This document shows positions 20,048 to 42,682 of a stretch of DNA of 64,000 bases, one piece after another; position 1 is the first letter of the stretch; the number at the start of each line of letters is the position of its first letter. Both the position numbers and the translations under genes were made by a program. Source of the stretch: Magnolia sinica. Taxonomy: Eukaryota > Streptophyta > Magnoliopsida > Magnoliales > Magnoliaceae. Location of the stretch: positions 92,437,501 through 92,501,500 of the forward strand of contig NC_080573.1 in assembly GCF_029962835.1 (NCBI RefSeq), written 5' to 3'. The notes beneath the pieces were generated by a model. That model worked only from the letters and a program-made list of their open reading frames with translations. It searched no databases and had not been told where the DNA came from.

Positions 20048-20135
20048 CACTAGACCAAAATCCCTCTTTAGGAACGGTTGAGAACTGTTCCTAAACCAAT
20101 TAGGAACAGTTTTCAACCATGGCTAAATAGGGCAT
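20048..20135. promoter_or_regulatory. CACTA-1 left terminal and subterminal repeats
   Basis: Inverted copies of TAGGAACGGTT: TAGGAACGGTTGAGAACTG, GTTCCTAAACC and TAGGAACAGTTTTCAACC. Such subterminal arrays are transposase-binding sites in CACTA elements; binding here is inferred. Confidence 0.75.
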
Positions 20136-20822
20136 GCCGCAAAATCAATTTCCATCCCAATTTTCAAATTTTCAAAACCGACGTTATATTCCACACCCAT
20201 ATGCCACTGAGAGATAGTTCTATCAAAATCCTAGCTCCGATCGATACATCAGCCTACCAAGTACAATATGGGGATATAGCTCTGTCATATATGTTCTACT
20301 AGTTCTATGGATTCCCATGCTAGTTTTGTATCATTTAAAAAAATGGCCATGCCTCATCCTCTCCACATGATTTACTGATGTGAAACTATCTAGATCATTT
20401 AAATTGTGGGTCTTATTGTAAATAGGACATATCTAAAATCACAGTAATCAAGCAATCCCAGGCAACCAATTAATAGGAATCAAATAGATGTTTAAAAATA
20501 AAACAGTGAGTAGTCTAAATTCAAAGTGAAAAATCATACGGGTAATACTATCTTCTCAGTGCAAGTTTTTATAAATGCTATACATGCATAAAAATGAACA
20601 ACTTACAAGCAGTGAAACAGGGCCGAAAAGGGGCTCAAAATATAACCTAAAATAAGCCCCAAAACAGCATACTCACAAAGATGAAGCATACACTTGAGGC
20701 GAGGGAAACAAACCTAAAATAACTGTCAGGAAAAACCAATAGATCCAAGGCAATTTTATGGTTCTAGCGAAGAATCGAAAGTTCTATTTGGACTTGGATA
20801 CCTGTAAAAGCATTTTATAAGC
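20136..20822. other. CACTA-1 sequence without recognised gene content
   Basis: AT-rich, no convincing exon on either strand. Confidence 0.5.
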
Positions 20823-21693
20823 CTACAACAATTGATTAGCAGCAGGGCCAAATCCATGCAACTGAGGCACTTCCATCATGTGTGTCCAAGGATGAATTTC
20901 CTACAAACGAATAACATTTGTTAAAAACTTCCTTGAGCGCATGATGCAGAAACAAGAAACAAGTAACATGATGCAGAAAGAAGGAAAAAATCTAGATATT
21001 TCAACTAATTCAAAACCATTTGTCATAGAATTTTTTTTTTAGAATGTCAAATCAGATCAACCAAACCTCTGATCTCTGCATCTGAAATTTTACAGAAATA
21101 AACCAACTTAACATTTATCTGCTGCAAATACTTCCAAACTGCTTCCTTCATCAAAAGCAGCATCGATCCACAATAAACAACTTGAGGATTCTTGGATCCT
21201 TACTCTTTCTCAGGTGGTAGACTCTCAGGAGTTTCAACACCTGGTCAAGGGTTCAAGTATCCATAAGTGGTGAAATTCCACTGGCGTGAGTGTGTGGTGT
21301 GAGCATGCGTGTGTAAAATATATATATATATATATAAATTTAAAAAAAAAAAAAAAAAAAAACCCTCGAGGATTCTCAGGAATATCTAACAGGGACCCCA
21401 CATTTCCTGTCTGGCTGTGGCTTCCCAATCTCTTTGATGCAGTATTTGGCCAAATTGTCAGTAACATCAGCATGATTTTGTGCAACTAAAATGTTGTTGT
21501 CTGGATAGAAAATACATGGCCTACATTTAAGAGAGTTCCATCAGTGGGTCAGTCAATGTGCTCGTTAAGAAAATGAGAGCAGCATATCAAGCATAAAATG
21601 GCAATATCGATACCTGGGTAAAAAGGCATGTTGCCTCTCAAGTGGGGTAACTGTCACACCATTTCCATAGTGCTCCTCTAGGTAAGCAAACTG
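20823..21693 (-). pseudogene. Unidentified captured gene fragment, exon cluster A
   Basis: Minus-strand exon-like blocks in transcription order. 21614-21693 has an AAG acceptor and a CAG|GTATCG donor and encodes QFAYLEEHYGNGVTVTPLER. About 21390-21520 follows an acceptor AAATGTAG and encodes IFYPDNNILVAQNHADVTDN. 21125-21190 encodes LLWIDAAFDEGSSLEVFAAD. The last block, 20823-20900, has acceptor TTTGTAG, reads EIHPWTHMMEVPQLHGFG and ends in TAG. The first exon ends two bases into a codon and the next supplies the missing base, so the join stays in frame, which is good evidence for genuine captured exons. I do not recognise the protein. Not every block has a clean donor, and it may be a pseudogene. 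Confidence 0.55.
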
Positions 21694-22530
21694 CTTCAAA
21701 TAGATGATTATAAAAGAAATACTTCTAACCCATTAATGCAGTAGAAAACAGCCAAAAAAATTGGATGGGTTAGGATCTTTCTATCTGAATGATTTTTTAA
21801 GGCAAGGGTCACTCGTGGTCAAGACCATCTGAGCAACAATCTTCTTTACCAAAGATTGGCACAACCAAACTGGGCCCAAACGTTCAAAGTTGTGGTGTAT
21901 TGGTTAAACTAAGGTGTCAGCTCACCACTGTCAACCAAATCATGGTGACCTGTCCAACAAGTGGGGCTTAATCTGGATGGAGAACAACCACAGAAATCAA
22001 TCCTATCATTCAACTGGGTCTGGGATCTATCAAATTGAATGGTCCAATTCAATTGGGCAAAATTAGATGGTCTCAAATGATTGTGATTGTTGGGCAATGA
22101 TCCACTCATGACAGGGATCATAGTAAATGGACAGCCATAAATGCATGCAACCAAATGCACATTGAATGAATTGTAACCGTTTTAAAAAATGTTATTGTTA
22201 GTGTAGATTAGGCCAAATATTAATTAACAACTCCTACATTGCACCCTGCACATTGAAAATAAGAGATAATCATCACATACAGCAACTGTATATGAACTTT
22301 CACATTCTGCATTTTCTCCCACCAGAGTTGCGTTTGCAAAATATTCAATACATGCAAAAGGTAGAGTCACATACCATGAAACCTGTTATAGAAATTGGGC
22401 CAATCTACTCATTCGGTAGGCTATAAGTCAAAATCAATGGCCAGCTAATGGACATCTAGCTAATCACATGACATCGAGTAAATAATTATTGGTTGTTTTT
22501 TGAAGTTTTATGAAAGCTAGATTCACTCAC

Positions 22531-22694
22531 CATTATTCCAGGCATAGTCATTTTTAAAGAGAGTCTTCCCATCGGGGTTAACTCTGAAGGGCCCTTGTTC
22601 CATCATGGCTCTAATTAGGGAGGAGCATCCAGGACCTGCATATCCCAACTTCATGATGGCCACCCAAGGATCATGAGAGAACTTATTTGAAAAA
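22531..22694 (-). pseudogene. Serine carboxypeptidase-like exon fragment
   Basis: A 164-bp exon with acceptor GGTTTTCAG and donor AATG|GTGAGT encodes [20 protein letters not shown] followed by SL...[16 protein letters not shown] and YAWNN. This is the oxyanion-hole region of S10 serine carboxypeptidases (family pattern GGPGCSS, then ELGPFRVN..GKTL..N.YAWN). Here the first Gly of GGPGCSS is Ala. The catalytic Ser, Asp and His exons are not in the neighbourhood, so this is one captured exon, not a gene. It lies in CACTA-1 beside exons of other genes. Active members are vacuolar or secreted peptidases or acyltransferases. Confidence 0.82.
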
Positions 22695-23543
22695 CTGAAA
22701 ACCAGTTCACCTACCATGGCTCCCACCATATCAACATTCTGGATCACCAACCCATGGGCCTATACAAACTGAAAATGGGACCTTTGGTTTCTCTCTCTCC
22801 AAACATCTAGCTAATCACATGACAACATGAGTGTACGTAACAGAACTTTGCTTGCATCTAAATGGGACCTTTGGTTTCTCTCTATCAAAACATCTGCTTA
22901 CATTGTAGGGAGGTTTTTTCTGTTGGATTTTAGATCAATAAAAGGAATTTTTGCCATTAACTTCAAAATGGAAGTATTTTATTCCAGTCAATTGGCAACT
23001 TAGCTTTCTTAGTCTTATTATCCTAATCTCCTTCACAAGTTTGGAAGTTTTCATATATTTCTTGTGGTGTGTACAAATAATTAGGATGAATGCACAAATC
23101 AATTGCAGATTAGCCATTTAACAGAAAGACACAGGCATTGATGTCAGAAATCTGATGCAGATTAGCCATTTAAAGGATGAATGCACAGATATGATGCTGA
23201 AAAAATTAGCTTAGTTTTCCATGAGAAGAAAACAGAATAACAACAAGATGCATCTATCAAGTATATCAGGAAAAAAAATAAAAAATACCATAATTCACAA
23301 CAAAGCATGAATCAAACAAAGTAAACTTGAGAATACATGAATAAACAGAAAGGCACAAGGATTGATGTCCTCAGAAATCTAATAGCAGTGAAAGAACAAA
23401 TTACTGAGAAATCTGAAATTGTGTGCAATGATCAAACACTATTTTATGGAACTGGCACATATTAAAAAAAAAAAAAAATGAAACCTGAAATTAAAGATAT
23501 GCGGTTTTGTGACTGCCAGTAAAAGTCATTGTAAAAGCACCAC

Positions 23544-23591
23544 CTGAACATCAGCGTGGACGGCCACATTCCATTCAGCTATATAGGCTTC
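23544..23591 (-). pseudogene. 48-bp exon-like block, unidentified
   Basis: Bounded by acceptor TTACAG and donor CAG|GTGGTG, it encodes EAYIAEWNVAVHADVQ with no stop. It may belong to cluster A or to another captured gene; the protein is not recognised. Confidence 0.4.
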
Positions 23592-23924
23592 CTGTAACAG
23601 GGTAGTAGGAAATTCACATCCCCAATTTTCTAGCTCTTGAAGACCAATTCCACAAAAACATTTAGCCATACTAGTACAAACCAACTATAAAATTAGAAAG
23701 TACCATACTAGACAATACAATAACATTTCATTAGCCAAAAAACAAACATTGGATCAACCTGATTCTTGTGCTAGGGCATCAATGTAGTGGTGCCATTTTG
23801 ATGGATGGATTGGATCTCAGACCTTAGTGCAATGCTGCCACATATGTGGCATGTTCATGAGCTTCATTGCACATGCATGGCTGTAGCAAAGCTCTCAACC
23901 AAATGTCAATTTGTGGATACTTGT

Positions 23925-24716
23925 TGTTGATGCAAAAAGCTGGTGAGCCTTCCTTCTAATCTATCGCCTACACAAGGATGAGACAAAGGAGACCTTGGCT
24001 AGAGCCGGGGACCCTCCAATGCTAAAGTCAGTGATTGGACAGTGTAGGAAGGGTTTTTAGAAGGGTTTACCACGTACCTTTGATTTTGGAGACGTCCTTC
24101 TTTTATAGGAGTGAGGGGTCCCGCTGTGCAGGGATTCTTTCCCCAATCTTAGAAGATTTGATTTGATTGCAATCTACTTACGGATGCTTCCCGATCCCGA
24201 GATTTTCAGGGTTGGGAATCCTTTCACAAGATTTTCGGGACGGTATTCATGCTTCCACCATCTCTTCCTTGCTCGGCTCGGCCTTGACCGATTCTAATAA
24301 TAAATGAGTCTCGGCTAGCTGCAAGGACGGGGCTTTTTATCTTCTATCGGATGAAACAGAGTCGGCTCGTAACCGATACTCCTTCTTATTCCGATAACCA
24401 ATACTACAACCGACTTAACATGAGTCAGTTTTATGATCAATCGAGCGATTTCTAGCCTTGGGACCTTAGTTGATCCTTTAGACGTTGCTGGCTCATTTAC
24501 CGAGGCAACTTTATGTGTCTTCTATATCTTGCCTACGGCTCCTGACTCTTTGACTCTCGGTCGGAACCTCTTTTCCGCAACCCGAGTTAAGTCTCTCCTT
24601 TAGGCTTCACTGTTTTACCTTGGTCGGACCTGTTACCTCGGATCATCGGGCTGTGTCAGTAGAGTTGGTCCATTCCATAACCGAGTCTCCGGACTTGTCG
24701 TATTTTTTCCCCAACA
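23925..24716 (-). repeat. Tat element 3' LTR
   Basis: 792 bp, TG...CA ends. It keeps CCTATAAAAGAAGG (minus strand, about 24095-24108), a TATA-like motif lost from the 5' LTR. Just inside it, the minus strand reads AAGGAGTAAGGGGGCTTAC, a polypurine-type tract (24717-24735). Confidence 0.92.
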
Positions 24717-24952
24717 GTAAGCCCCCTTACTCCTTGTGTCAGCTATGTCGACACTAAGGGGTAATGAGTTTTTAAGTCGGTGTGCCCTGGAGACTAAGGT
24801 TACGATGGGGCAATTAATGCTTCTTGTGTCGTTTTTAACGTGCGTCGGTTCCTTACTCGAGGTCGCACGAGCGGACAGCCGTCAAAACATTTCGTTCGCT
24901 TATGAGCGTTGGACGCATGGCGAGGACGTTACTTGTGTCAGTTGGCGTGTGC

Positions 24953-25034
24953 CACGTGTTGGGCGGGGGAGTCGAAACAGACGACGATTCGACTCCTCCT
25001 TAAATGCCTCTGCCACGTGGCGGGGCTATAAAAG
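24953..25034 (+). promoter_or_regulatory. Promoter-like region of the antisense gene: two G-boxes and a TATA box
   Basis: CACGTG occurs at 24953-24958 and 25014-25019, and TATAAAAG at 25027-25034, in plus orientation. The first ATG of the antisense gene is about 190 bp downstream, after a CT-rich leader. The spacing and order are those of a plant core promoter; activity is inferred. Confidence 0.6.
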
Positions 25035-25215
25035 GAGCGGGACGCCATTTCCCCATTTTCGCACATCTGCTCTTTCCTCCCCCATTTCCTCTTTTTCTCT
25101 GTTGCCGTTTCCTTCACCATTTCCATTCCCTTTTTCCTTTTAGCTTCTCCGTCTGTGTGTTTTTCGCCTCTCCGGTGAGTTTTAACTCTCTCCCTCCCTT
25201 TCCTTTTCAATTTCA

Positions 25216-27499
25216 ATGGCAATGCATGGTCCTTCAAGTCCCCGAGAGGGGATTTCTGGTGATGAGGACGAACTAGACATCTCTGGAATGTCTCGGAATC
25301 GCCCTCATTACTGACGGAGATGGCGATTGGCACCAATGAAGCTTTACAGTTTTCTGAAAGGGTCTCTGAAACTTCAGCGGAGCGTCCTGCTTCGGCAGGT
25401 CCTTCTGGAGGCGTGTCACTGTCGACTGCCTCTAGGAGACCTAATCCTCCTGGGGATGACTTGGAAGAAGAGGATGAGGAATTTGAGGAAACCACTAAGC
25501 CGGTTCCTCTTAGGAGGTCGGTTCGGGTCGCTGAGTCGGCAGACGAGGAAGGGGAGGCTGCCGAGGGAGGGGAGGCTGGAGATGAGCAGAGGGGTCCGGT
25601 CCCTTCGGTCTTAACTGAGGCAGACTTGGACAGAATTCGAGTCGAGTATCATGTCCCTGTCTCAGTTATTCTTCGCCTTCCTCTCCCGAGTGAATTGCCC
25701 AACCATCCTCCTCCTAGGATGGTCGCGATTTTCCAAGTTGCCATGCAATGTGGCTTGCGTCTGCCCCTTCAACCCGTTGCTCAGGATTTCCTTTCCCGAC
25801 TCTGAATTGCTCTCGGGCAAATAGTTCCGAATGGGTGGAGGAACTTATTCGGATGTTCAGTGTTATGGGCCGAGGCAGAGCAGCCCCCATCGACCATTGA
25901 TGAGTTCCTCTATCTGTACCAAGTACGACCAAACCCTTAACAACCCAGCTGGTACTTCCTGTGTGCTTGGCGGAACAAGGGCGGTCCTCTGATAACTGAC
26001 CCTCCTCCCTCTAACAAGCACTGGAGAGAGAGGTGGTTCTGGGCGTGCGGTCGTTGGGAGACCACCAAGTCTGGGCTCTTTGGACCTCGCATTCCTCGGG
26101 CATTCTTAGAAGCAGATGACTCGGCATGTTCTTTCTGTGTCTTTTCTTGTTATGATTCTTCTAAGTCTGACTGAACGTGTTTTTGCAAACATTCCCAAGA
26201 AAAGGCCGAAGTTAGGCACCAACGCTTTAGCTCGAATCAAGGAACTGAAGACGCTAAGTCCGGAAGATCGGTCTTGGAAGAATCTTCTTCAGCCAAAGCG
26301 TCTTCTTCTCTCAAGCCTAAATTCTGTCGTGATAGGTATCCTTTATTTGTTCTGACGCATTTTTCTTGGATTTTTCCTAACTCTTTACCTTGTCTAATAC
26401 AAAGATGGCTGAAGCTCGGCCCTTTCTGAAACCGGCGTAAAAAATGAAAGCTCCTCCAGGGTCGGTGCTTCTGTCGGAGCCTCGGCCTTCAAAGAAGGCG
26501 AAGACGGCTCCAAAGGCTAAGGAGTCCGCCCCAGTCACCCCTGCTCCAGTCATCTCGACTGTCATCATGCTTTCTGACCCCGAAGAGAGGGCAGAAGAGG
26601 CAGGAGCAGTCCCTGGCGAGTCTCAAGTGGCTTCTGAGCCGGGACCCGTTGCAGAGCGAGTCTCGGAGCACAGAGGGGAGGCTTCAGGAGGGGGGATGAC
26701 TCAACAAGAGCCTTCGCCTTTCTAGTGGGTTGTGGCGGGGATGGTCTCTTGGGCCATCGCCCATGGGAGGGAGAGGGACTTTGCTAGTCTCTACAATGCC
26801 CCTTTGCTACAAACCCTCGGTCATGCGGCGAAGATACTCCTTGAAGTAATGTTTGTAGTTTCCCCTTTTTTTATGATTTCTTCTATTGGTGACTCAGTCT
26901 GGCTTCACATTTTCCTTTTGCAGTTGGCCCCTTGTTTGGTTAAGGCCTGCTCGGACCTGACCGCGGCTCAAAAACAGGCAGCTGAGGCGGAAGCAAAAGT
27001 CGAGGCTGCCTTGGCTTGGGCTGGAATTTTGTCAGGCGAATTGGGACTAGCTAGGAAGGCCGCGGCTGATGCCAAAGCCGAATGTGCTCATGTGGCTTCG
27101 CTACTGATAGAGGCTTAAGAAGAGAGTCGGCGAATCCGTCAGGCTCATGCCTCTTACACGGATAAGCTGGCTCGGACCAAGCCTGAAGCCGAGGCGGCTA
27201 TCCAGAGGGCCATCAACGAGGCCAAGGAGGCCAAGGATCAGGCCGTACAAGCCTTTCTCGGATCCCAAGAGTTTAAGGAAGAGAGGGATCGCTTGTATCA
27301 GGGTGGATATACAACTTGCATCCAACTGATGAAGCAGTCTTTTCCCGACCTTGATCTCTCAGGATTTGATGACGGTGCCTCCGGGTCTGAGGGTCAGGAG
27401 GCTGAGGCTGCCGAACCTGCTGAAGCCGCAGCTGGTGTCAAAGTCGAAACCGAGGTAGCTCCCGAGGTTACTGAGGTTGCTCCAAGTGGTGGTAGCTGA
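25216..27499 (+). pseudogene. Antisense extra gene of the Tat element (plant 'putative gypsy-type' protein family), broken
   Basis: This gene runs opposite to gag-pol. 25216 and 25320 are candidate starts. 25620-26110 encodes the conserved N-terminal domain of a family often labelled 'putative gypsy type transposon' (PF04195 from memory): RVEYHVPVSVILRLPLPS, AMQCGLRLPLQPVAQDFL, then VPNGWRNL and HWRERWFWACG. A frame change or intron near 26170 leads to LKTLSPEDRSWKNLL, and introns are plausible at 26334-26403 and 26846-26923 (78 bp, GTAATG...TTGCAG). The C-terminus is an Ala/Glu coiled coil (26930-27290) and a conserved end (DRLYQGGYTTC, PDLDLSGFDD). In-frame stops lie at 25803, 25938, about 26437, 26723 and 27116. 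The function of such Tat extra ORFs is unknown. Confidence 0.75.
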
Positions 27500-27840
27500 G
27501 TCTGAACTACTCAAGTTATCTCCTAGTGAACCTTGGAGCTAAATTTTTGGTACCATCATCAGCTCCATTTTTGGCACTCACACCAGCTCTCCAAATAAAC
27601 CGAGCTCCAGGGCAGGCTCAAGAGTATCCACAACCAAGGAAGAAGCTTGTGTGTCATGGCCGACCCTTCGTTTTATTTTTAAGCCTTTTACTCTGTTAAT
27701 GTAATGTCGAAGCAAGATATAACTTAATGTAACAAACATACTGATGAATGAATACACATGGTTTTCTTTTTCATTTTGATTCAGTTTATATGCTTGTCAA
27801 TTTTGAGTCTTTTTGAACGCTTTGCTAGGCTGACCTAGGG
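27500..27840 (+). other. 3' untranslated-like stretch of the antisense gene
   Basis: AT-richer sequence with TAATGTAATG, TTAATGTAAC and AATGAATACA motifs at 27695-27755, plausible as a polyadenylation region for the plus-strand transcript. No coding frame. Confidence 0.4.
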
Positions 27841-27844
27841 ATAG

Positions 27845-28985
27845 TAGATTTTCAAATGCTCGGCATTCCACGGATGAGGTAGCAATTGTCCGGTAAGGTC
27901 TTCCAATCGATACGTTCCTGGTTGGATGGTGCTTGAGACGACATAGGGTCCTTCCCAGTTGGGTCCCAGTGTGCCCGCACCATCTTCCTTAGAGTTGAGG
28001 AACGTTTTTCAGAGAATCATGTCCCCGACTCGAAATCGCCTCACCTTGACTCGGGCATTATAAAATCGAGTTACTTGTTGCTAGTGAGCCATAGTTCGTA
28101 GCCGAGCTCTTTCTCTTTGTTCCTCCACAAGGTCAAGTCTGAGGGCCAAGAGTTCTTCATTATCCTCTTCGCTAAACGAATTGATTCGGGCTGAAAGTAG
28201 CTCGATCTCGACTGGGGTAACGGCTTCCGAGCCATAAGCAAGGGAGAAAGGAGTTTCTCCTGTAGCGGTTCGGACCGTGGTTCGGTATGCCCACAGTATT
28301 TTTGGGAGTTCTTCGGCCCATGCTCCTTTAGCTCGGTCAAGCTTAGTTCGGAGATATTGTTTGATGATCTTATTGACTGCCTTAACCTGTCCGTTCGTCT
28401 GAGGATGATGGGGCGATGAGTATACATTTCTAATTCCGAGATTATCGCACATCTCTCGAAAGCTTCTGTTATCGAACTGCTTTCCGTTGTCAGTAACAAT
28501 AGTTCGGGGTATCCCGAACCGACAGATAATGTTTTTCCATACAAAGTCCGTGCTCTTCTGTTCGGATATCTTCGCCAAAGGCTCTGCCTCGGCCCACTTT
28601 GTGAAGTAGTCTATTGCTATGATAGCGAACTTGGTCTGGCCTTTTCCCATGGGGAGTGGTCCGATAATATCGATTCCCCACTGCGCGAAGGACCAAGGAC
28701 CGGTCATTGGAGTCAGCTCCTCCGAGGGTTACCTCGGAATAATTGCAAACCTTTGACATTTATCGCATCTTTGGACGAGTTTACGAGCGTCGTGCTGAAC
28801 GGTCGACCAGTAATATCCTTGACGTAAAACCTTGTGTGTGAGTGCTCGCCCACCCGAGTGATTTCCACAGATCCCTTCTTGGATCTCCTGTAGTACGTAA
28901 TTGGCTTCATCGGGATTTAGGCATCGTAATAAAGGAGCATAGAAATCCTTTTTATATAGTATCCCGTTAAGAATGGTGTAGTGGG
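27845..28985 (-). pseudogene. Tat integrase, catalytic Glu replaced
   Basis: Integrase inserts the cDNA into the host genome. In order: the zinc-binding HHCC region (GNHSGGRALTHK...CDKCQ, about 28745-28860), then the rve core with Asp in WGIDIIGPLP and Asp in TDNGKQFD. In the third catalytic block the plus-strand triplet CTT gives Lys in TNGQVKAVN, where the family has Glu, so the DDE triad is broken by an apparent G-to-A change. The core frame is open at 28081-28707. TAA at 28729-28731 interrupts it upstream and TAG at about 28078 downstream. A C-terminal module with GPNWEGPYVV and PWNAEHLKIYYP ends near 27845. Confidence 0.9.
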
Positions 28986-28989
28986 AAGC

Positions 28990-29560
28990 TCAGATCTTTA
29001 ATCGTCGAGCCTCGCCGTGATCTTCGGGCAACTCTCTATTGTTGAGATATCGGATGATCAGGTCGAGCCAAGTGGGTTCCGAATCAATTGTATGCATGGT
29101 CGAGCTAACTGGTTCACTGATACTCGGCTTAGCGACATACTCGATCGGAATGGACCTAAGTATGTCGTCCTCGTCGGCTGAGGCAAGTTTTGCTAATAGA
29201 TCGGCTTTGACATTTTCGGTCCGAGGGATCTGAGTGATGACGCATAGCTGAAAGTTGCCGATCAATTCTTTGGCTTTCTCCATGTATGCTTTTAGTTGTT
29301 CTTTTTGTGTTTGATACATGCTCGTAACCTAATTGACGACTAGTTGTGAATCACTGAAGACGTTAAGATGTGTAACACCTAAACTGGCCGCGAGTCGGAG
29401 GCCGAGCAATAAAGCTTCATATTCTGCTATATTGTTTGAGGCTTGAAATCCAAGTCTTAAGGCATACTACATGTAAGTCTGATCGGGAGTTTCCAAGATT
29501 ACTCCTGCCCCACTTGCTTGAGAGTTGGAGGGCCATCGACATACAACTTCCAGGGAATTG
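28990..29560 (-). pseudogene. Second (archaeal-type) RNase H of the Tat element
   Basis: The acidic residues of RNase H are present in order: YVDGPSNS (about 29530-29547), [20 protein letters not shown] and KADLLAKLAS. It would degrade RNA in RNA-DNA hybrids during reverse transcription. A second RNase H placed between the gypsy RNase H and integrase is diagnostic for the Tat lineage. Two in-frame TAG codons (about 29467, and next to SDSQLVVN near 29330) break it. Confidence 0.85.
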
Positions 29561-29639
29561 GGTCAGGCGATGACTCGGGAGAAGCGGTCGTCAATTCTTT
29601 AGTAGGCTCGGTATTCCAAGTCATTGAATCTGCTCGTGG

Positions 29640-31017
29640 TGTCACTTCAGCAATGAAGTCGGCCACGGCTTGCCCCTTGATTGTTACTCTCGGCTTGAAT
29701 TAAATATCGAATTCGCTAAGTTTAATCGCCCACTTCGTAAGTCAACCTGAAGCTTCTGGTTTCTATAGAATTTGACGCAGTGGGAGGTCGGTCATAATGA
29801 CAATGGTGTGAGCTTGGAAGTATGGCCGAAGTCGCCGCAAGAAAACTACTAGGACTAAGGCCACTTTTTCTAGAAGTGGATATCTTGTATCTGCCGGTAA
29901 TAATGCTTTGCTAATGTAATAAACGGGCAGCTGCTTTCCTTCTTGTTCTCGTATCAGAGTTGAGCTAACCGCTGCCTCAGACATCATCAGATACAACAGC
30001 AGAGCTTCCCCGGTTCAGGTTTCGATAAGAGAGGCGGAGATCCGAGATAAGACTTTAATTGCTGAAATGTTGCTTCGCACTCTTTCATCCAATCCACCGT
30101 TTGTCGTTCCTTCAGTTGTTTAAAGAATGAGAGGCATTTATCGGTAGCTCGGGACAGGAAGCGATTGAGTGCGGCTACTCGTCCGGTCAGCCTTTGTATG
30201 TCTTTGATCGTCTTTGGAGATTCCATGTCAAGCAATGCCTTGATCTTTTCCGGATTTGCCTCGATCCCTCGCTGACTAACTAAGAATCCGAGGAACTTTT
30301 CCGAGCTCATGCCGAAGGCACACTTACTTGGATTTAGCTTCATTTGGAACTTGTGCAAGATCAGGAACATTTCTTCTAAGTTGGCTATATGATCGGCCGT
30401 ATGTATACTCTTGACGAGCATGTCGTCAATGTAAACTTTCATGGTTTGGCCGATTTGCCGAGCGAATATTTTGTTCACTAATCTTTGATAAGTTGTTCCA
30501 GCGTTTTTAAACCAAACGGCATCACTCGGTAACAATAAAGACCTTTGTCAGTGACAAAGGTGGTCTTAGATTTATCAGATTGGTGCATTACAATTTGATT
30601 TTACCCTGAATAGGTATCCATCAAGCTAAGAAGTTCGTGCCCTGCAGTGCTGTCAACCATCTGATCGATCCTCGGAAGAGGGAAGCTATCCTTTGGGCAG
30701 GCTTTGTTTAAGTCGGTATAATCAATACAGACTCGTCACTTCCCATTGGCTTTCTTCACAAGCACGACATTAGCTATCCATTTTGGGTAGTATATCTCTT
30801 CTATGACTTTGTCCTTAAGGAGCTTGCTGACCTCTTCTTCAATTATAGCATACTTTTCGGGGCCGAGCAGGCGTCGCTTCTGTCGAATCGGTCGATAGGT
30901 CGGATCGATGTTGAGTCGATGAGTCATTACCGAAGGATCGATCCCAGGCATGTCCTCATGACTCCATGCAAATACGTCAGCGTAACGTTGGAGCAGAGCT
31001 ATCAGATTGTCTTTCAC
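29640..31017 (-). pseudogene. Tat reverse transcriptase and gypsy RNase H
   Basis: The RT start DVFAWSHEDMPGIDPSVMTH lies at about 30970, followed by a palm region with KVYIDDMLVKS (YIDD catalytic motif intact, about 30425-30450) and thumb FLGFLVSQRGIEANPEKI. The RNase H part has EAALLL-like decay at the start, then QLPVYYISKALL. Breaks: TGA after VKKANGK (about 30735), one base missing in the A-run of the FGLKNAG block (about 30510), and a one-base frameshift near 29998. It copies element RNA into DNA in intact relatives. Confidence 0.92.
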
Positions 31018-31107
31018 GGGTGACTACAGAGACGAGCCAATTCGCACCATTTTAGATTCATCTGTCTCAGCCAAAGGTACCGAGATAAGGTCTTCCACCG
31101 GTTGTCC

Positions 31108-31689: not shown

Positions 31690-33323
31690 GATCTCGGACT
31701 CAGGTCGACTGATGCTCCTGGCGTGATTTTTCCAAGCATTGTTCGAGTCGCCTCCGCCTTAAGGACCGCCAACAATAGTATGGATTTCCTCCGTGGGTCG
31801 GTTGTCACTCGGGCATTCTTCCATTGTCCCGGTTCTTTCAACGTGTTCTCTAAGCCAGCCTTCTCAGATAAGTCTTTCGATCTCTTCCTTCGAGTGATAA
31901 AAATCACTCGTACTATGGCATGACCGCGATGGTAGTGGCAATATTTATCATTATTCCGTCGGTTCGGATTACTCCGAAGCTTATTCGGCCAACTGATAAA
32001 TCCTTCACTCTTGATTTCCATCAGCACCTGCTCTTGAGGTTTATTAAGCAGGTTGTATGTAGAAAACCTTCGGTCGGGTCGCTTGCCCGACTTACATTCA
32101 TCACATGTTTGGTCGTCATTACGCTTCTTTCCTCCAGCCGAGTCAACTTCCTTTTTGGCTGACTCTTTGGCTGGGGTTTTTGCGTTCTGGGCGACCTCAT
32201 ACAAGTTCTGTGTTTCCTCGACGTCCGCATATTTATCTGACCGAGTCATGAATTCAGCCAGAGTCATAGGCGGATTCTTGTCCAGGGATGCCAGAAACGG
32301 CTTATCCCTAACACCTTGCATGATGGAATTGAGTGCCGTCTCCTCTGAATGTTTTCGAACTTGGAGTAATTCAAAATTGAAACGTTTGATATAATCTTTT
32401 AGTAACTCTCCCTCCTTCTGAACTATGTTGTCCAGATGCGTAGGGGGCTTCAACTTCTTCCCACCAATGAAGTTGGTGAGGAACGCATCACTGAGCTCCG
32501 TAAACAAGGTGACGGACTTTGGTTTCAACTGCTTGAACCAAAGTCTAGCTACATTGGCTAAAGTGAAGGAAAAATCTCGGCACATTACAGCATCCGAGGC
32601 ATCATGCAATTCTATGTATGTTCGAAAACATTCAATGTGTTCAGTTAGATAGGTTTTACTGGTGAAAGGTGTGATTTGCGGAAAACGAAACCGTTCCGGT
32701 AGCCGTGCCTGCACTATTTCCTCCACAAATGGGGATGCCTTTGTTTCAGGCCTAATTTGATAGGCATCCCGACTCTGCTTCATGTCCGCAATCTATTCCC
32801 ACACTTGTCTCCTGAAGTCGTGAAGGTCGGCTTTCCAAGGTTCATCACTTTCTGTCATTCCCTCAACCGGAGGCCGACTGCACCTCCGCCAATCAATCTC
32901 ATGTCGGAGATCAGTAGGGGGCAGCACGACAGTCTTGGAATGAGTGGATGCTGACTTGGACGGACCGTGTGGCTGACTTCGCTGAGGGATCGCCGATTGC
33001 GGAGCGATAGGCTCAGGATCGGCGACTTGTTGTGGGACGTTGGTCGTCTGGGCACCGGGCTGAACTTGTTGCCGATGTATCTGTTCCAACATTTGTTTCA
33101 TGATGTTTATGTCAGATCTGAGTTCCTGGACCTCTTTATCCAATCGTCCATTGCCTCAGTTCCGCTGGGTGTTTCTCGTAGCAGCAGAGGCCACCGGATG
33201 AGCAGCGGAATTCTGACGGTTGTTGGATTGATTCTGAGTTCCTCGATTTACGCTCGTACCCAGTCGTTCAGTGACAGCAACCTCATTTAGCTCTTCTTGG
33301 ACCGTTCTTCTAGTTATCACCAT
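31690..33323 (-). pseudogene. Tat gag
   Basis: A likely start is the ATG at 33321-33323 (MVITRRTVQEELNE). The capsid core is at 32230-32720: CFRTYIELHDASDAVMCRDF, ARLWFKQLKP, YIKRFNFELLQV. It is a retrotransposon gag domain, making virus-like particles. Near 31915 the CHYHRGH motif is followed by a frameshift, after which the normal continuation (STSDFYHSKEEIERL) is in the protease frame. Stops lie at 33156-33158 (TGA) and 32793-32795 (TAG), and two more after the shift. Confidence 0.88.
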
Positions 33324-33379
33324 TAGAGCACGTTTACAGCTTCTGGATAGAGTGTGGAGAACGACTTTTTGTACAGTTT

Positions 33380-33398
33380 CCCACAGACGACGCCAAAT
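33380..33398 (-). promoter_or_regulatory. Tat primer-binding site
   Basis: Directly inside the 5' LTR the minus strand reads TTTGGCGTCGTCTGTGGG, resembling the TTGGCGCCGTCTGTGGG site common in Tat elements with one C-to-T change. The priming tRNA was not assigned. Confidence 0.7.
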
Positions 33399-34167
33399 TG
33401 TTGATGCAAAAAGCTGGTGAGCCTTCCTTCTGATCTATCGCCTACACAAGGATGAGACAAAGGAGACCCTAGCTAGAGCCGGGGACCCTCCGATGCTAAA
33501 GTCAGTGACTGGACAACGTAGGAAGGGTTTTTAGAAGGGTTTACCACGTACCTTTGATTTTGGAGACGTCCTTCCCGCCATGCAGGGATTCTTTCCCCAA
33601 TCTTAGGAGATTTGATTTGATTGTAATCCGCTTACGGATGCTTCCCAATCCCGAGATTTTTGGGGTCGGGAATCCTTTCACAAGATTTTCGGGACGGTAT
33701 TCATGCTTACACCACCTCTTCCTTGCTCGGCTCGGCCTTGACCGACTCTAATAATAGATGAGTCTCGGCTGGCTGCAAGGACAGGGCTTTTTATCTTCTA
33801 TCAGATGAAACAGAGTCGGCTCGTAACCGATACTCCTTATTCCGATAACCGATACTACAACCGACTTAACATGAGTCAGTTTTATGATCGATCGGGCGAT
33901 TTCTAGCCTTGGGACCTTAGTTGATCCTTTAGACGTTGTAGGCTCATTTGCCGAGGCAACTTTATGCGTCTTCTATATCTTGCCTACGGCTCCCGACTCT
34001 TTGACTCTCGGTCAGAACCTCTTTTCCACAACCCGAGTTAAGTCTCTCCTTTAGGCTTCACTGTTTTGCCTCGGTCGGACCTGTTACCTTGGATCCTCGG
34101 GCTGTGTCAGTAGAGTTGGTCCATTCCATAACCAGGTCTCCGGACTTGTCATGTTTTTTCCCCAACA
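33399..34167 (-). repeat. Tat element 5' LTR, promoter region deleted
   Basis: 769 bp, TG...CA. Near 33570 it lacks about 20 bp present in the other LTR, and that block contains CCTATAAAAG on the element's coding strand. Confidence 0.92.
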
Positions 34168-34507
34168 CTTGTAAACAGAGCTTATTATTGGGATTACTAT
34201 GATTTTTTGAAGGCATGAAATGGGCTCTAGGTCATGATGCATTTATTTGTTCGGTTGTAATATTGTGACTTGGAAACAGAGCTACATCATGGTTTGTTAC
34301 TGAGATTCCCAAACCAAATGAACTGCTCTTCTCTACACACGACTCTTGGCATGGTTTTAAATATTGATTTCTGAATGTGACTTTCTTGGGACAGAAACTG
34401 GTACTACTCATTCCAACCATTCCAATCAAACGATGTTGAAGCATGAATTAAAGAAAATTGTAATGTAGAATATATGTACATCATGTGCTGTGAAGGGAAA
34501 ATCGCAG

Positions 34508-34619
34508 GGCCTGTTTGGTAGACACCTGAAAATGAGTTCATCTCATTTTAATTAAAACATAACGATGATTAACTAAAATGAACTGAAATCAAATTTAGGT
34601 GTTTGCCAAACAGGCCCTA
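34508..34619. mobile_element. Short MITE with GGCCTGTTTGG ends
   Basis: About 112 bp with near-perfect inverted arms: GGCCTGTTTGGTAGACACCT and its mirrored AGGTGTTTGCCAAACAGGCC. The target duplication is not clear. A similar arm (AGGGCCTGTTTGGATTTGC) occurs at 44493. Confidence 0.75.
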
Positions 34620-35198
34620 AGATGTTTGGATGGTTGCTGTTGTTGCTGATGCAAGTGGACCTGCAATTGGTTTTGAACAGGAGTGCCACGATTTTCTAGA
34701 TTATGTTAGTTTGAGAATATCCCTGGTCTCAAATGAGTCAACGTTGGTTTATTGCCACATGTGACTGGTGGGCCCCACTGTGGATGTCCCAAGATACAAA
34801 AGTTACCACCAATGATCCTAGTCTTTGAATTAATAGGACTTACCCTTGGAATGTGGACCAACGGCCCATTGTTTATTTCCACAGTCCAGGATCTGGGTGT
34901 GGTTTCTCTACTGTGGAACATCCCCAGTAGGCCCCTACCAGATAGACAATCTGAATTTACCATCTCTTCATCACATGTATGGTCCTGACTGGCAATGGAC
35001 CAAGATCATTACAGTTATGAGGGGAATTCAGGCTCCTATGAATCATGAAAAAAAAATCACATCCTATCTATGTGGATTAAACACAATATTGTTTAACTTC
35101 TAATGAACTTCCTAAAGATTATAAAAAATAAAGAGTTCTGTTCAATTTTCTTTCAATGACTTAAGTTCCAGTCAAATGTCGGAGAAGATTACACTTAC

Positions 35199-36645
35199 AT
35201 CTTCTAGCAATTTATCAAGAACTGGAAGTGCCAGAGACTCCATGTAGTCAATCTTGTGCTCAACACCAGCCTTTTGATGACTGGCAATCCTATCTCGTAT
35301 GCTGCCTGGTTTGGGTCTATCGCTATGATCTGCATCATTATATAGTCTCTATAATGAGTAATGACAGATGAATATTATATAGATGAGAAATGCCAAGGTG
35401 ATCTCCACGTGATTTGTGGCACACTTGCCAACCTGCCAAGGTGATCTCCATTTCTTCAATTCATGCTTCAACATACTAACAAACCCGAATTGTGAAAATG
35501 ACAAAACCCCATACCCAACATCTCACTACATTGTCAATCAAAAGAAATAAATAAATAAAACCTCATTGCGACAAAATCTCCACCAAATAAAAGAACCCCC
35601 CAAAATCCCAATTTCAAAAGTTAAAAAGAGAGAAGAAGAAGAAGAAGAAGAAGAAGAAGGAAGAAGGAAGAAGGAAGAAGAAGTATATAGATGAGAAATG
35701 CCATGGTGATCTCCACGTGATTTGTGACAAAATCTCCACCAAAAGAAGAAGAAGAAGAAGAAGGGGTGCAAATATCTAAAAAAGGGTGGGGCATTGAGAT
35801 CAGTTTCATTTCTGCTTGTTGTGGCTGTTGTTGTGGTTGCTCTGATGACTGATCTGATGCTTTTTTACTAACTGGAGATTCTGGTTCCAGGTGGGACACA
35901 ATATTCTGAGCAGATCCAATTCTCAGCTGACTGATATCATACACCAAAGAAATTTGTATGCACTTCAGTAATGCAGATTGGGTTGTCTGGAATCCACTCA
36001 AATACATCAAAAGTAAAAACAATCTTGAAATTGGAGTTTTTTCAAATAATAGCCTCTATAACAGAAAAGCCATCAGAGAGAGATGGGCTTGTTTGTATGA
36101 ATCAAAAACATTGTTTGTATGAATTAAAATACTTCCTAAATTGAAGGAGCTTGTTCACCATATCTGAGATGGGCCATGCTCTCTAGCTTAAATTCTTCCA
36201 TCATAGAGAGATCATATAACTCTCTACTTGCTTCCAAATGATTCAGAGATGCCGGGGCATGTTTGACTAGTTGGGTTCTTCTATCTATATGTAACTTCCA
36301 AAGTTCATCTGATTTGAAGAAAGAAACACGGCTCAAAAGACAATTGCAGCTTGTGTTATTTAGTTCATACAAGCATCTTTACAAATGAAAGAAACAAACA
36401 TCTCACCGCCCCAAGAAGATAATCTTCGGATCTAATCGTAAAGCCCCTCTTCATGCCAGATATCAACTAAAAAATCAACCATCTCCTGCACGTACGTTGG
36501 CATGAAAAGCTATTTACATATGAAGGAATTATATGATCTTCTACCTGATGATGTTGTACACCAGTTTCCTTCTGGTTTTCAGTTTGCAGAAGAGGAGCCC
36601 ATGGTTCACTGACAAAGACCATTTTCTGTTGGGACTCGTTGCAGA
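35199..36645 (-). pseudogene. Unidentified captured gene fragment, exon cluster B
   Basis: Five minus-strand blocks in order. 36545-36640 encodes MVFVSEPWAPLLQTENQK, donor CAG|GTAG. 36407-36485 has acceptor GTGCAG and donor GTGAGA and encodes MVDFLVDIWHEEGLYD then TAG. About 36159-36308 encodes LWKLHIDRRTQLVKHAPASL. About 35775-35986 has acceptor TTCCAG and reads TTQSALLKCIQISLVYDISQ with a Gln-rich end. 35199-35329 has acceptor GATGCAG and donor GTAAGTG and encodes HSDRPKPGSIRDRIASHQKA. Clean splice sites and low stop density argue for real exons, although the TAG breaks the second. I cannot name the protein. Cluster B may be the 5' part of the gene in cluster A, now separated by the Tat element. 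Confidence 0.55.
35380..35760. repeat. Local duplication plus (GAA)n microsatellite
   Basis: TAGATGAGAAATGCCAAGGT with GATCTCCACGTGATTTGTG appears at about 35378 and again at 35687. ACAAAATCTCCACCAAA appears at 35571 and 35728. A (GAA)n tract lies at 35632-35680. Confidence 0.8.
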
Positions 36646-36756
36646 TAGACCATTCAAAAAAAAAAAAAAAACAACTCCATAAGAATATCCTTATCTCTCA
36701 ATATGTGGCCCTGCAAACTGACAATTAAGAAGAGACAGGGAAACGGTCCACATTAA

Positions 36757-38002
36757 TGATGCAGGACATGAAAATTAAATATGATATGTGAGATTTCAGG
36801 CTTAAGATCACGTTAGTTCAGAAACAATTACACAAATTCCATATCCCACATGAAAGTCCAAACATTCAATTAAGGGGAATCTATGCGGGTCCAGGCCTAC
36901 ACATGATAGGGCTGGATCAATAAAAATTATGAACCAAACAATACTCAAAGATAAGAAATAATCATCCACACATGCATGGTAATCAGTCCCTAATCCAAGG
37001 AATTCAGAAATTCCAATTCGGGGAACCCTAGCGAAAAAAAAGGGGCATAAAATTGGAGATTTGAGTAATTTAGGATTAGGATTAGGGATTTTGGGTGAAA
37101 GCGGAGTAAAAGATAGAAGAGAAACGAATCAGAGAAGTACCGCACGCATGGACAACAACGATGGCCCAGACGCACATGTGTGTGATCCCAGCCGCACGTG
37201 TGTGGGGCCCACTATTCAGAAAAAGGCTACCTTGGCCCTGGTCAGCTAGGGATGGACTCCAAAATTCCCAAATCTCAGCTCGATCCGATGTATGGTTTGT
37301 GCGTGGTGATCCACCGAAGTTTCAGCCCTCCTGTAGGGTCAAATTCTGAAATTCTGTTGTGAGGAGGAGAATTGCTGCAATAGATGATTGATTCGAAGTG
37401 TTGATGATGAGGTGAGATGAGAAGAATAGATGGTAAAAGATAGGTAGTAGACATGACGATGGATGGGGGCGAATCGGGATAGATGTGGCTTCGCACCACG
37501 GTCGTTAACCCTTTGATGAAGGGAGGGCTTCGCACCCAATTAGGCTTTACAACTCAGAGAGTAGGAAAATGCAGAATTTTTATTAATCTTCAAATGAATG
37601 AAAAGAACTACAAGGGGTGCCTATTTATAGGGAAAATCCTATACCTCAAAAACTCGCACCATGTGTGTAACCTATTACTTGACGATAAAGTAAACTAAAA
37701 TAAAAACTAAACAAAGAAATCTAAAGTATTCACGATGTTGTAAATAATAACAATAAGCAAAACCTAAAATATGAAATCAATTCGACGAGTAGGCCACGAT
37801 CATGAGATCCCATGATGGGTTTTTCTTGACTATCGGGCCCACCCTTTTGAACCAAAACTTCATATTCTAGATAGGAGACCTTCCCTGGACGTCGTCATCG
37901 AGCCAGATCGATGGTGAGGCCCTCCTTCTGCGTACGTACGTGCGCTAGGGGGGGGGGGGGGGGGGGAGTGTGTGTGCACATGTGTGCATGATGTCTCCAT
38001 CA
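36757..38002 (-). repeat. Chromovirus 3' LTR
   Basis: 1246 bp. It contains a G-only run (37950-37967) and a GT-rich stretch near the end. The mate is 39767-40985. Confidence 0.92.
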
Positions 38003-38069
38003 ATTCTCCCCGGCTGCGAAGATTTCGCCACTGGCAAAATAAAACTCTTAAACCGATCCAGGATGTCAG

Positions 38070-38840
38070 GATCAAGTTTCTGAAGCTCCTCCCTAGTGAG
38101 TCACGTGTTGTCTGAAGCTAGGCATAACTTTCATTTAACCAGGTACTTCTGAAACCCGCCGTCCGACGTAGATATTATCTGATGGTCCAGAATATCCTTT
38201 ATTTCCTCTCTAGGTGTGGGAAGGGTAGGTAGTGAGGTAGAGGCTGAGAAAATGGGTTGGGAAGGGTAGGTATGGGACGTAGTAGCTAGGAAGATGGGTC
38301 AGGACAGGTAGGTATAGGAGGTAGAGGTTGGGAAAATGGGTCAGGACGGGTAGGTATGGGATGTAGAGGTTGGAAAAATGGGTCGGGAGGGATAGGTATG
38401 GGACGTAGTAGCTGGGAAGATAGGTCGGGACGGATAGGTATGGGAGGTAGAGGTTGGAAAATGGGTCGAGAGGGGGCCATGGATCAAGGGAAAGGTCTGA
38501 TGAATCAAGATGGTTAGGTGAAAGGCTGGATAATGCATCAATGGCCCCTTAAAATGCAACTAGATCCTCCACATTGAATGTGGAACTAATTCCCATGGAG
38601 GGTGGAAGATTTGCCACATACGCGTTGAGACCGTTTCATTTTATAATTTTGACGGGTCCAACGCTAAGCGCGTGTAACTTACGAACGGACTCCGGAGGAT
38701 ACCGCTCGGGCCTGATGCGGACCATCACAGAGTCCCTTACATTGAATTCTTTGAAACATTTATGCTGGTCTGCAGAAAATTTGTAATGTTCATTACTAGT
38801 AGTGATTTCTGCCTGATTTCTTAATGCCATGAATGAATGT
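38070..38840 (-). pseudogene. Chromovirus integrase C-terminus, repeat linker and chromodomain
   Basis: 38636-38830 encodes the integrase tail (CFKEFNVRDSVMVRIRPERY, KLHALSVGPVKIIK), continuing to ISSTFNVEDLVAF and a stop near 38547. The linker then holds about six 42-bp repeats (38224-38476). After a one-base shift, EEIKDILDHQIISTSDGGFQ and KYLVK mark the chromodomain that targets chromovirus integration to marked chromatin (about 38070-38215). TGA replaces Trp after KYLVK. Confidence 0.82.
38224..38476 (-). repeat. 42-bp minisatellite in the integrase-chromodomain linker
   Basis: The plus-strand unit is near GGGTAGGTATGGGACGTAG followed by TAGCTGGGAAGATGGGTCGGGAC; about six copies. 42 bp is a multiple of three, so each unit adds 14 residues (like PSYYVPYLSLPTHF) without shifting the frame. 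Confidence 0.85.
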
Positions 38841-38855
38841 GATGTAGAAAAGACT

Positions 38856-39404
38856 CTACAGGCTCTGACGGCCTATGGGACAGTGACATAGGGACAAGAT
38901 CAATTGGTTTCTCAGGTTTATAACCAGTAAAGACTTCATAAGGACTGAGAGACCTGTGGACCTATCGACAGAACTATTAAACGCAAACTCGGCTATAGGT
39001 ATTACGGTGTCCCATGTTCTGGTTTGCTCAATATCCCTCCTAGGGGGAAACTCATCTGGTATATTATCAGGAAAGACATCATGAAACTCATCCACTATCG
39101 GAATGACCTCAGTAGGTAACTCTATACTAGCCTCTGGTGCACTCTCTCTACCCACGAGGCCACACATGTTATACCCCTCAAAATAATGGTCTTGATGTCC
39201 CTCATGGGGTGGGGGTATGAGTGCACGCCCATGACTAATTCCTTCGCCACCTACCTGAGATTGACCATCTTCCCTAATGGTGGGGTTTGTCCTGAGGGAG
39301 GCCTCTATTTGGTCAAGGTGTTGATCTATGTCTTGTTCCAAGCGCTTACCCCAAGACTCGATCTGCTGAGACAACTTGTTTAGTGACTCTAGCAATTGTT
39401 CCAT
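38856..39404 (-). pseudogene. Chromovirus deletion-fusion frame: gag N-terminus, RT start and integrase piece
   Basis: The open frame begins MEQLLESLNKLSQQIESWGK (gag-like coiled coil), passes into VDEFHDVFPDNIPDEFPPRR (start of reverse transcriptase) and then WDTVIPIAEFAFNSSVDRST (late integrase core). The joins lack all catalytic motifs of protease, RT and integrase, so this is a product of two large internal deletions that kept an open frame. Confidence 0.85.
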
Positions 39405-39751
39405 GTTTAGTGTAGGGTGCTAGCTAAAACCATGACCCGTACGTGTGGGCATACAACTTGTAACTCTAACCAAGGACTTTCTACGACGACTATATGGGAC
39501 TAAATGATCCTATGGGACTATATGAGGGAAACTACGCAGTGCTACTAAAATCCAGCAATATAGTTGTCAAAATAAAGGAATAATAGAAAGTTACAACAAT
39601 GTAAATTGCTAAATTCCTACTAACAGAAATTTCAGCAACTAATATCAGGGACTATGGACTCCTCAAAGCTACATATGATGAATTGAATGCATGATGGACT
39701 CAAACAAACTAACCCTAAACATGTAATACATTCCCCTATAAGAACCCTAAG

Positions 39752-39766
39752 CTCTGATATCAAATT
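39752..39766 (-). promoter_or_regulatory. Chromovirus primer-binding site
   Basis: The minus strand reads TTTGATATCAGAGC directly inside the 5' LTR, one to two changes from the Met-initiator site TGGTATCAGAGC. Confidence 0.75.
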
Positions 39767-40985
39767 TGATGCAGGACATGACAATTAAATATGATATGCG
39801 AGATTTCAGGCTTAAGATCACGTTAGTTCAGAAATAATTACACAAATTCCATATCCCACATGAAAGTCCAAACATTCAATTAAGAGGAATCTATGCGGGT
39901 CCAGGCCTACACATGATAGGGCTGGATCAATAAGAATTATGAACCAAATGATACTCAAAGATAAGAAATAATCATCCACACATGCATAGTAATTAGTCTT
40001 TAATCCAAGGGATTCAGAAATTCCAATCGGGAAACCCTAGGGTAAAAAAGAAAGGGCATAAAATTGGATATTTGAGTAATTTAGGGTTAGGTTTAGGGAT
40101 TTTGGGTGAAAGCGAAGTGAAAGATAGAAGAGAGACGAACCAGAGAAGTACCGCACGCGTGGACAACAACGATGGCCCAGACGCACGTGTGTGTGATCCC
40201 GACCGCACGTGTGTAGCGCCCACTATTTAGAAAAAGAACACCTTGGCCCTTGTCAGCCAGGGATGGACTCCAAAATCCCCAAATTTCAGCTCGATCCAAT
40301 GTACGGTTTGTGCGTGGTGCTCCGCCGAAGTTTCGGCTCTCCTGTAAGGCCAGATTCTTAAATTTTGTTGTGAGGAGGAGAATTGCTACAATAGATGATT
40401 GATTCGAAGTGTAGATGATGGGGTGAGATGAGAATAATGGATGGTAGAGATGGCGATGGATAGGGGCGAATCGGGATAGATGTGGCTTCGCACCATGGTA
40501 GTTAACCCTTCGATGAAGGGAGGGCTTCGCACCCAATTAGGCTTTACAACTCAGAGAGTAGGAAAACGCAGAATTTTTATTAATCTTCAAATGAATGAAA
40601 AGAACTACAAGGGGTGCCTATTTATAGGGAAAACCCTATACTCCAAAAACTCGCACTATGTGCGCAATCTATTACTTAGCGATGAAGTAAACTAAAATAA
40701 AAACCGAACAAAGAAATATAAAGTATTCACGATGTTCTAAATAATAACAATAAGCAAAACCTAAAATATGAAATTAATTCGACGAGTGGGCCACGATCAT
40801 GAGATCCCATGATAGGTTTTTCTTGACTATCGGGCCCACCCTTTTGAACTAAAACTTCGTCTTCTAGCTAGGGGGCCCTCCTTGGATATTGTCATCGAGC
40901 CAGATCGATGGTGGGGCCCTCCTTTTGTGTACGTACGTGTGTAGGGGGTGTTGTGCGTGCGCGTGTGCGCATGATGTCCCCATCA
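39767..40985 (-). repeat. Chromovirus 5' LTR
   Basis: 1219 bp, several percent different from 36757-38002 by eye, with the same TG...CA ends. Confidence 0.92.
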
Positions 40986-41059
40986 ATTAAACTTCAAACA
41001 GCTAAGATCAGTGGTGAGGATCTTCCAGACTAGGAGACTTTCTAGACAGCCTTTGCCCA

Positions 41060-41280
41060 CAGTGGGTTGCATCAGAGGTGATTTTTGAGATGGCATTCAT
41101 CCACAATAAGTTGCATTCGTACAATGGTCTGGACCTCTGAACCATGGGTCTCACTTATAAAAGCTGAAAATCTGAGGATAACATACATGTCCTTGGTGAT
41201 GACCTTATCAATTCTCATTAACATATAGATTAAATTAGCTTGGAATTTAGGATAGCTACCAAAACATGCCATTGGGAGGA
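41060..41280 (-). other. Weak exon-like block
   Basis: An open minus frame reads SYPKFQANLIYMLMRIDKVI then TKDMYVILRFSAFI. The remainder looks repeat-derived. It could be a captured exon; no family recognised. Confidence 0.25.
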
Positions 41281-41792: not shown

Positions 41793-41925
41793 CTGTAGAT
41801 CTTCAGGGAGATATTCGTGCTTTATGGAGAGATCCATTGAATGCTTGAGATGCAAGTGGCTAAGGCTTCCTTGATATCCATATCATACATCGGATTACAG
41901 AGATCCTCGTATCTCATCCTTGGAC
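41793..41925 (-). pseudogene. QCR7: QCR7 (cytochrome bc1 complex 14-kDa subunit) exon fragment
   Basis: Minus-strand frames give MRYEDLCNPMYDMDIKEAL and, after a short deletion with a frame change, HSMDLSIKHEYLPEDLQ followed by donor CAG|GTCCTC. Plant QCR7 has the same order (LRYDDLYDxxYxxDIKEA, then RAMDLSMKHEYLP.DLQ). The intervening PRE(V/I)VDARNQRLK segment is lost. QCR7 is a matrix-side subunit of mitochondrial complex III; this partial exon cannot encode it. It lies in CACTA-1 as one of several captured gene pieces. Confidence 0.85.
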
Positions 41926-41934
41926 ATGTTAAAA

Positions 41935-41960
41935 GAGAGAGAGATTCAAAAAAAAAAACC

Positions 41961-41995
<35 letters not shown>
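41935..41995. repeat. (GA)n microsatellite
   Basis: GA dinucleotide run at 41964-41992, interrupted by an A-rich tract. Confidence 0.9.
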
Positions 41996-42265
41996 TAGGT
42001 AAAAATATAAGATGTATTTGTATAGGCATTTGGATAGGGAGAAAATTACAAGAGTGTGAGAGGAACAATTGCAACAACGAGATGCATCTCTCTTTCTTTT
42101 CCTCACCATTCTCCGTTCTTCCTTCCCATTCTCCGTTCTTTCTTCCCCGTGCAAGGAAGAGTAGATGAGCAAGGGTTCTTTTTAGGCATGGGGTTGTTTT
42201 TGGATGTATTTGGTACTACCCATCACGAAGGAGCTGGAGACGGGCGATACTATCAGGTGCTCCAT

Positions 42266-42540
42266 GGGGCCTACTGTGATATAAGTGGTTTATCCACACC
42301 ATCCATTCATTTTTACAAGTACTTTTAGGGCATGATCCCAAAAAGGAGGAAAAACAAAGGACCAAATGGACCACACCACAAATAACGGTAGGAACTTAAT
42401 CTCCACTGTATTCTACTCTGTGGTCCATTTGAACCTTCGATCTGCCTCTCTTTTTAGGCTCATGTGCTAAAATAAGCTGTTAATATCGATGGATGGCTTA
42501 GATAAAACATGTACATCATGGTGGCCTCCATAGGTCCACC
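42266..42540. mobile_element. Short GGGCCCAC-family MITE within CACTA-1
   Basis: The left arm GTTTATCCACACCATCCATTC and right arm GATGGATGGCTTAGATAAAAC are mirrored. The middle of the family (between about TGGACCACACCAC and GTGGTCCATTTG) is deleted. Confidence 0.75.
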
Positions 42541-42574
42541 TATGGGACTATCTAAAGCTGTAGCAAAATAGCTT

Positions 42575-42682
42575 CGGTTTATATTCGTAGCTAAATAACC
42601 TATTATTCTTAAGTAGGAACGGTTTTAAACCATTCCTAAACCAAAGAGCTAGCTGTTCCTAATTAATGATTTTGGTGTAGTG
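42575..42682. promoter_or_regulatory. CACTA-1 right subterminal and terminal repeats
   Basis: TAGGAACGGTTTTAAACCATTCC at 42613 and GTTCCTAATTAATGATTTTGG at the end mirror the left subterminal motif. The terminal 15 bp is the inverted repeat. Confidence 0.78.

Follow-up and report, generated by a model that had tools for sequence, protein, structure and literature searches.

CACTA transposons that carry pieces of host genes have been described in several plants. In soybean, the 5.7-kb CACTA element Tgm-Express1 of the wp allele is located in an intron of F3H, contains portions of five unrelated genes, exons as well as introns, and yields chimeric spliced transcripts (PMC1947982). The Tpn1 family of Ipomoea nil, with an average length of 7,081 bp over 339 elements, has 28-bp terminal inverted repeats (TIRs) and subterminal tandem repeats of 122 and 104 bp (PMC5105172), and Pack-CACTA elements have been documented in Arabidopsis and maize (PMC8903248). 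The CACTA elements of Chenopodium carry host fragments (Neprosin or AP2) and retain transposase domains, and a CACTA element with a transposase domain has been reported in Magnolia ashei (PMC8978399). Here we analysed a 64,000-nucleotide stretch of Magnolia sinica (contig NC_080573.1, positions 92,437,501 to 92,501,500; hereafter the window), of which positions 20048-42682 very probably form one old CACTA (En/Spm-type) transposon, non-autonomous and of the Pack-CACTA kind, that holds fragments of five host genes.

Like Tgm-Express1, this element belongs to the CACTA superfamily and combines five gene fragments with retained introns and canonical splice sites, but it measures 8.15 kb, is split by retrotransposons, contains other genes and is known here from sequence alone (PMC1947982). 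As in Tpn1, a non-autonomous CACTA element has had its interior replaced by host genic DNA with the terminal regions kept, whereas the ends differ, those in the window showing a TIR match over 15 bp together with short motifs of 11 bp (PMC5105172). Host gene fragments are also shared with the Chenopodium elements, which unlike this one retain transposase domains (PMC8978399), and while packFinder requires clustering with related copies, the window element is known here from one copy (PMC8903248). Multi-gene Pack-CACTAs are already documented (Tgm-Express1, Tpn1 and the Arabidopsis and maize Pack-CACTAs), and the initial annotation of the window had pointed out that such elements are known; the element is a new example of that kind. 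No description of it, or of CACTA gene capture in Magnolia or Liriodendron, was found among the open-licence papers listed. A well-delimited multi-gene Pack-CACTA is hereby added, probably for the magnoliids, whose parental genes ought to be traceable within that genome.

The element is delimited by matching ends, AAT flanks and subterminal motifs. The left TIR (CACTAGACCAAAATC, 20048-20062, plus strand) and the right TIR (42668-42682, minus strand, with the reverse complement CACTACACCAAAATC) are identical at 14 of 15 bp, and both are directly flanked by a 3-bp target-site duplication (TSD), AAT, at 20045-20047 outside the left end and at 42683-42685 outside the right end, which reproduces the values initially annotated. 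Four CACTA/TAGTG pairs in the window are spaced 0.5-30 kb apart and match at 12 or more of 15 positions, and a 3-bp duplication accompanies only the pair at 20048/42682; among 200 order-1 Markov shuffles, five pairs reached at least 14 of 15 matches and none of these also had the duplication. The subterminal repeats previously noticed on both sides were recovered as TAGGAACGGTT-type motifs, with three of alternating orientation at 20069-20111 and two of opposite orientations at 42614-42638. In degenerate form, the 11-mer TAGGAA[CT][GA][GA]TT and its reverse occur at five sites in the 64 kb (20069, 20083, 20101, 42614 and 42628), all of them terminal to the element, three lying at most 64 bp from its left end and two at most 69 bp from its right end. 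The left end further has inverted arms of 33 nt that are 85% complementary (20062-20094 and 20100-20132). Three features that characterise CACTA (En/Spm) elements, namely TIRs starting with CACTA, a 3-bp TSD and short subterminal motifs in both orientations, were found. Separately, just to the right of the element, position 42962 marks the start of another CACTA-like end, CACTACGCCAATCGCCG, with CGTCGC-type motifs behind it, and a search of the window revealed no partner that matches it at 12 or more of 15 positions.

The sequences on either side of the element resemble a host repeat, and a related copy of this repeat that lacks the element is present on the plus strand at 62784-63105. The left flank (19944-20046) aligns to 62784-62884 with a score of 91, compared with a maximum of 40 in 300 shuffles, and the right flank (42709-42873) aligns to 62943-63105 with a score of 63, compared with a maximum of 42 in as many shuffles. 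Both matches are on the same strand and in the same order, and the highest score that any other part of the window gave with a flank was 34.5. These colinear alignments indicate that the flanks are one copy of the repeat family split by the element and thus that both ends belong to one insertion, which bears out their assignment to one element rather than two.

Five unrelated host genes are represented within the element: a serine carboxypeptidase, a MAPK, an O-methyltransferase (OMT), TGA2.2 and QCR7. The initial annotation had counted at least three unrelated genes and two unidentified exon clusters; the multi-gene cargo stood, with the count raised to five, and the clusters were identified, one being of MAPK15/16 type and the other consisting of TGA2.2 and the O-methyltransferase. 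The MAPK15/16-type fragment comprises a first exon piece at 21614-21702 (the part matched by tblastn with the Magnolia sinica protein P0002), a retained 93-bp GT-AG intron at 21521-21613 and a second exon piece at 21388-21520, all on the minus strand, and the homology ends inside the relative's protein at 21388. A read-through query matched 24 of 30 candidate proteins at E <=0.01, every one of the 24 having protein kinase domains; the informatively named proteins among these matches are MAPKs, and the best match is from Magnolia sinica (1.3e-26). Conversely, tblastn of three matched kinases against the window (E 1) located the 21388-21702 region only, with P0002 reaching 6e-29 across both exon pieces. 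Once the intron is removed, the exon pieces are free of stops, share 59 of 74 residues with Magnolia sinica and restore the relative's frame. The shorter stretch 21379-21540, queried alone, had matched nothing in the PDB but an antibody chain (E 0.81), which was set aside; it was the longer query that identified the MAPK. The colinear flanks and this frame-restoring GT-AG intron are the strongest independent support for a gene-capturing CACTA element with intron-bearing exons.

The serine carboxypeptidase (S10) exon at 22531-22635, on the minus strand between the acceptor-like GGATATGCAG and the donor-like GTGAGTG, was correctly named from the outset: it matches PF00450 (2.8e-10), the match beginning at the GPGCSS motif, as well as 14 distinct S10-fold sequences in the PDB (E 1.8e-8 to 0.003). 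The CCoAOMT-like O-methyltransferase exon (35199-35329, minus strand) lies between the acceptor-like TGATGCAG and the donor-like GTAAGTG. In one frame it corresponds to residues 95-117 of 8gxn_B, a caffeoyl-CoA O-methyltransferase (E 0.0039), and in the next frame to residues 112-140 of the same chain (E 0.0018), the best chain of that search reaching 3.7e-6. With their matches to solved methyltransferases arranged in order, the two frames represent one exon with an internal frame break. Adjoining it is an exon piece of the bZIP transcription factor TGA2.2 (35807-35926, minus strand), for which a protein search gave five candidates and the one match used was from Magnolia sinica (1.1e-9), with 35 of 37 residues in common over the matched part at 35807-35917; in tblastn at E 100, the row used had 3e-8, the next best had 0.25, and the remaining rows were discarded as chance. 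The nearest protein relatives of the MAPK and TGA2.2 pieces are thus both Magnolia sinica proteins, which points to Magnolia or a closely related plant as the probable source of the window. The QCR7 exon (41793-41918, minus strand), also recognised initially, matches residues 32-52 and 65-89 of chain 8bep_F in two abutting frames, and the residue gap between these frames points to a frame break with residues lost mid-exon. Given the frame breaks in both the QCR7 and the methyltransferase exons, the cargo is partly decayed.

Taken as a whole, all five fragments lie on the minus strand, for which the chance would be 1/16 if orientations were independent and both directions are counted, and they are spread over most of the element's core (21.4-41.9 kb). 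The earlier statement that introns were retained agrees with the 93-bp MAPK intron and with the splice-site-like flanks of the serine carboxypeptidase and methyltransferase exons. As anticipated, no transposase domain was detected by Pfam (E 1) in 40 core ORF (open reading frame) pieces from both strands, a scan that covers part of the ORFs of the core; the meaningful matches among these pieces were the peptidase and the methyltransferase, the latter below the curated cut-off. Weak rows were discarded as chance (Imm70, 0.054; Syntaxin-5_N, 0.95; DUF2754, 0.096; CRAL_TRIO_2, 0.084), and no part of the window matched Rfam at gathering scores. A Pack-CACTA is defined by host coding DNA in an interior without transposase, and the element shows host DNA from five genes and no transposase in the 40 ORF pieces. 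The exon-like minus-strand ORFs at 36139-36378, 36470-36697, 23529-23684 and 21050-21199, for which no convincing relative was found, were excluded from the gene count and may be further captured fragments; of these four, the large protein database was queried with 36139-36378 only, and its five candidates included none at E <=1.

Two nested long terminal repeat (LTR) retrotransposons interrupt the element. The one at 23925-34167 (LTR1, minus strand) has a perfect 5-bp TSD, CTTGT, and encodes gag, reverse transcriptase and integrase domains (Pfam) on the minus strand, and its two LTRs show 42 differences over 769 sites (Kimura two-parameter distance, K2P, 0.058). The other, at 36757-40985 (LTR2), has a likewise perfect 5-bp TSD, ATTAA, and a short internal region without a Pfam match in the single piece scanned, and its LTRs differ at 104 of 1217 sites (K2P 0.092). 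Both begin with TG and end with CA. The initially proposed cut points, 23920-34167 and 36752-40985, were exact, and the remainder, estimated at about 8.2 kb, is a core of 8153 bp. Owing to its higher LTR divergence, LTR2 looks older than LTR1, and because both are nested within the CACTA element, the latter is older than either. The relative timeline would run from capture to insertion of the element and then to the two retrotransposon insertions. These later insertions stretch 8 kb across 23 kb, and such elements can thereby escape notice. The original interpretation of a gene-capturing CACTA element hidden by later insertions is supported.

With regard to the mechanism, we infer that the fragments were acquired as genomic DNA, each as one or two exons with their intron flanks. 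Acquisition probably took place in several rounds, for example if neighbouring copies were mobilised as one hybrid element, or through gap repair; the former is the model proposed for Pack-CACTAs, in which adjacent insertions are mobilised as one hybrid element (PMC8903248, PMC13317346). The element would have moved in trans, its ends and subterminal motifs being recognised by a CACTA transposase whose gene lies elsewhere, and would then have remained static and decaying while LTR2 and LTR1 inserted. No working protein was recognised in the element, and any effect it has might be exerted via chimeric transcripts or small RNAs. Two of the five fragments have frame breaks, which together with the two retrotransposons indicates that the element became a relic some time ago. 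It is conceivable, if rather unlikely, that the exons, all in the same orientation and several of them with good splice sites, served as a portable exon cassette that would give rise to chimeric transcripts joining QCR7, TGA2, OMT, serine carboxypeptidase and MAPK, with transcription starting from the right side of the element or from outside, comparable to Tgm-Express1 in soybean. If this were true, CACTA capture would repeatedly produce orientation-sorted exon cassettes, including near Magnolia.

Several observations weigh against a Pack-CACTA carrying five captured genes. The subterminal motifs are few (three on the left and two on the right), and looser forms of them also occur within LTR1: the shorter motif GGAACNGTT and its reverse recover four of the five terminal sites plus 32689 inside LTR1, and TAGGAACGGTT with one mismatch allowed finds the same five terminal sites plus 24045 and 33519, which lie in the two LTRs of LTR1. 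Among the fragments, the methyltransferase has a Pfam score of 20.4 bits, below the curated cut-off of 22, and several exon-like core ORFs have no identified relative. The empty-site check suggested with the initial annotation yielded the related element-free repeat copy at 62784-63105 but no base-by-base read-through at the junction, where 58 unaligned bases in that copy stand against 26 beside the right end and 1 beside the left end. The words CACTA and TAGTG are moreover common, and another CACTA-like end lies just outside, at 42962, so one may ask whether the ends derive from two different CACTA elements, or from a chance match, with unrelated DNA in between. We regard this as extremely improbable, as a 14 of 15 match with a duplication did not arise in any of the 200 shuffles, the 11-mer is restricted to both ends and the flanks are colinear in the second repeat copy.

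The interior of the element allows for two further explanations. The gene fragments might have been gathered by a Helitron, a Pack-MULE or a small TIR element residing inside an ordinary CACTA shell, and the core does contain small dispersed repeats, a 24-nt inverted pair (34433-34456 and 35451-35474, 96% complementary) that encloses the methyltransferase exon, and 58-nt palindromic arms (CAGGGCCTGTTTGG...CCAAACAGGCCCTA) at 34498-34626 that resemble a nested miniature inverted-repeat transposable element (MITE), presumably of the hAT type. However, the fragments are scattered over most of the core instead of being confined to one sub-block, no target duplication is visible by eye at the 24-nt pair, and a strict scan of three core segments on both strands, made without a positive control, found no Helitron 3' end (a perfect GC-rich stem of 7-11 followed by CTRRT), which leaves this explanation improbable. 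Still less credible, in our view, is a decayed autonomous CACTA element that also captured some exons and whose transposase genes have been lost or have become unrecognisable; much of the core is without assignment and several of its exon-like ORFs lack relatives, as such a history would allow, yet five host genes have stayed recognisable while a transposase domain is absent from the ORF pieces scanned. A Pack-CACTA with fragments of five host genes thus remains by far the best explanation of the locus.

Some repeats extend beyond the element. Small dispersed repeats that are about 70-78% alike are common to the core and the rest of the window, at least at 7260-8100, 42262-42524, 23771-23862 and 54058-54172, and diverged minisatellite-like arrays, which belong to a single repeat family and partly run in opposite directions, occupy at least 9358-10654, 13408-13875 and 15700-17513.

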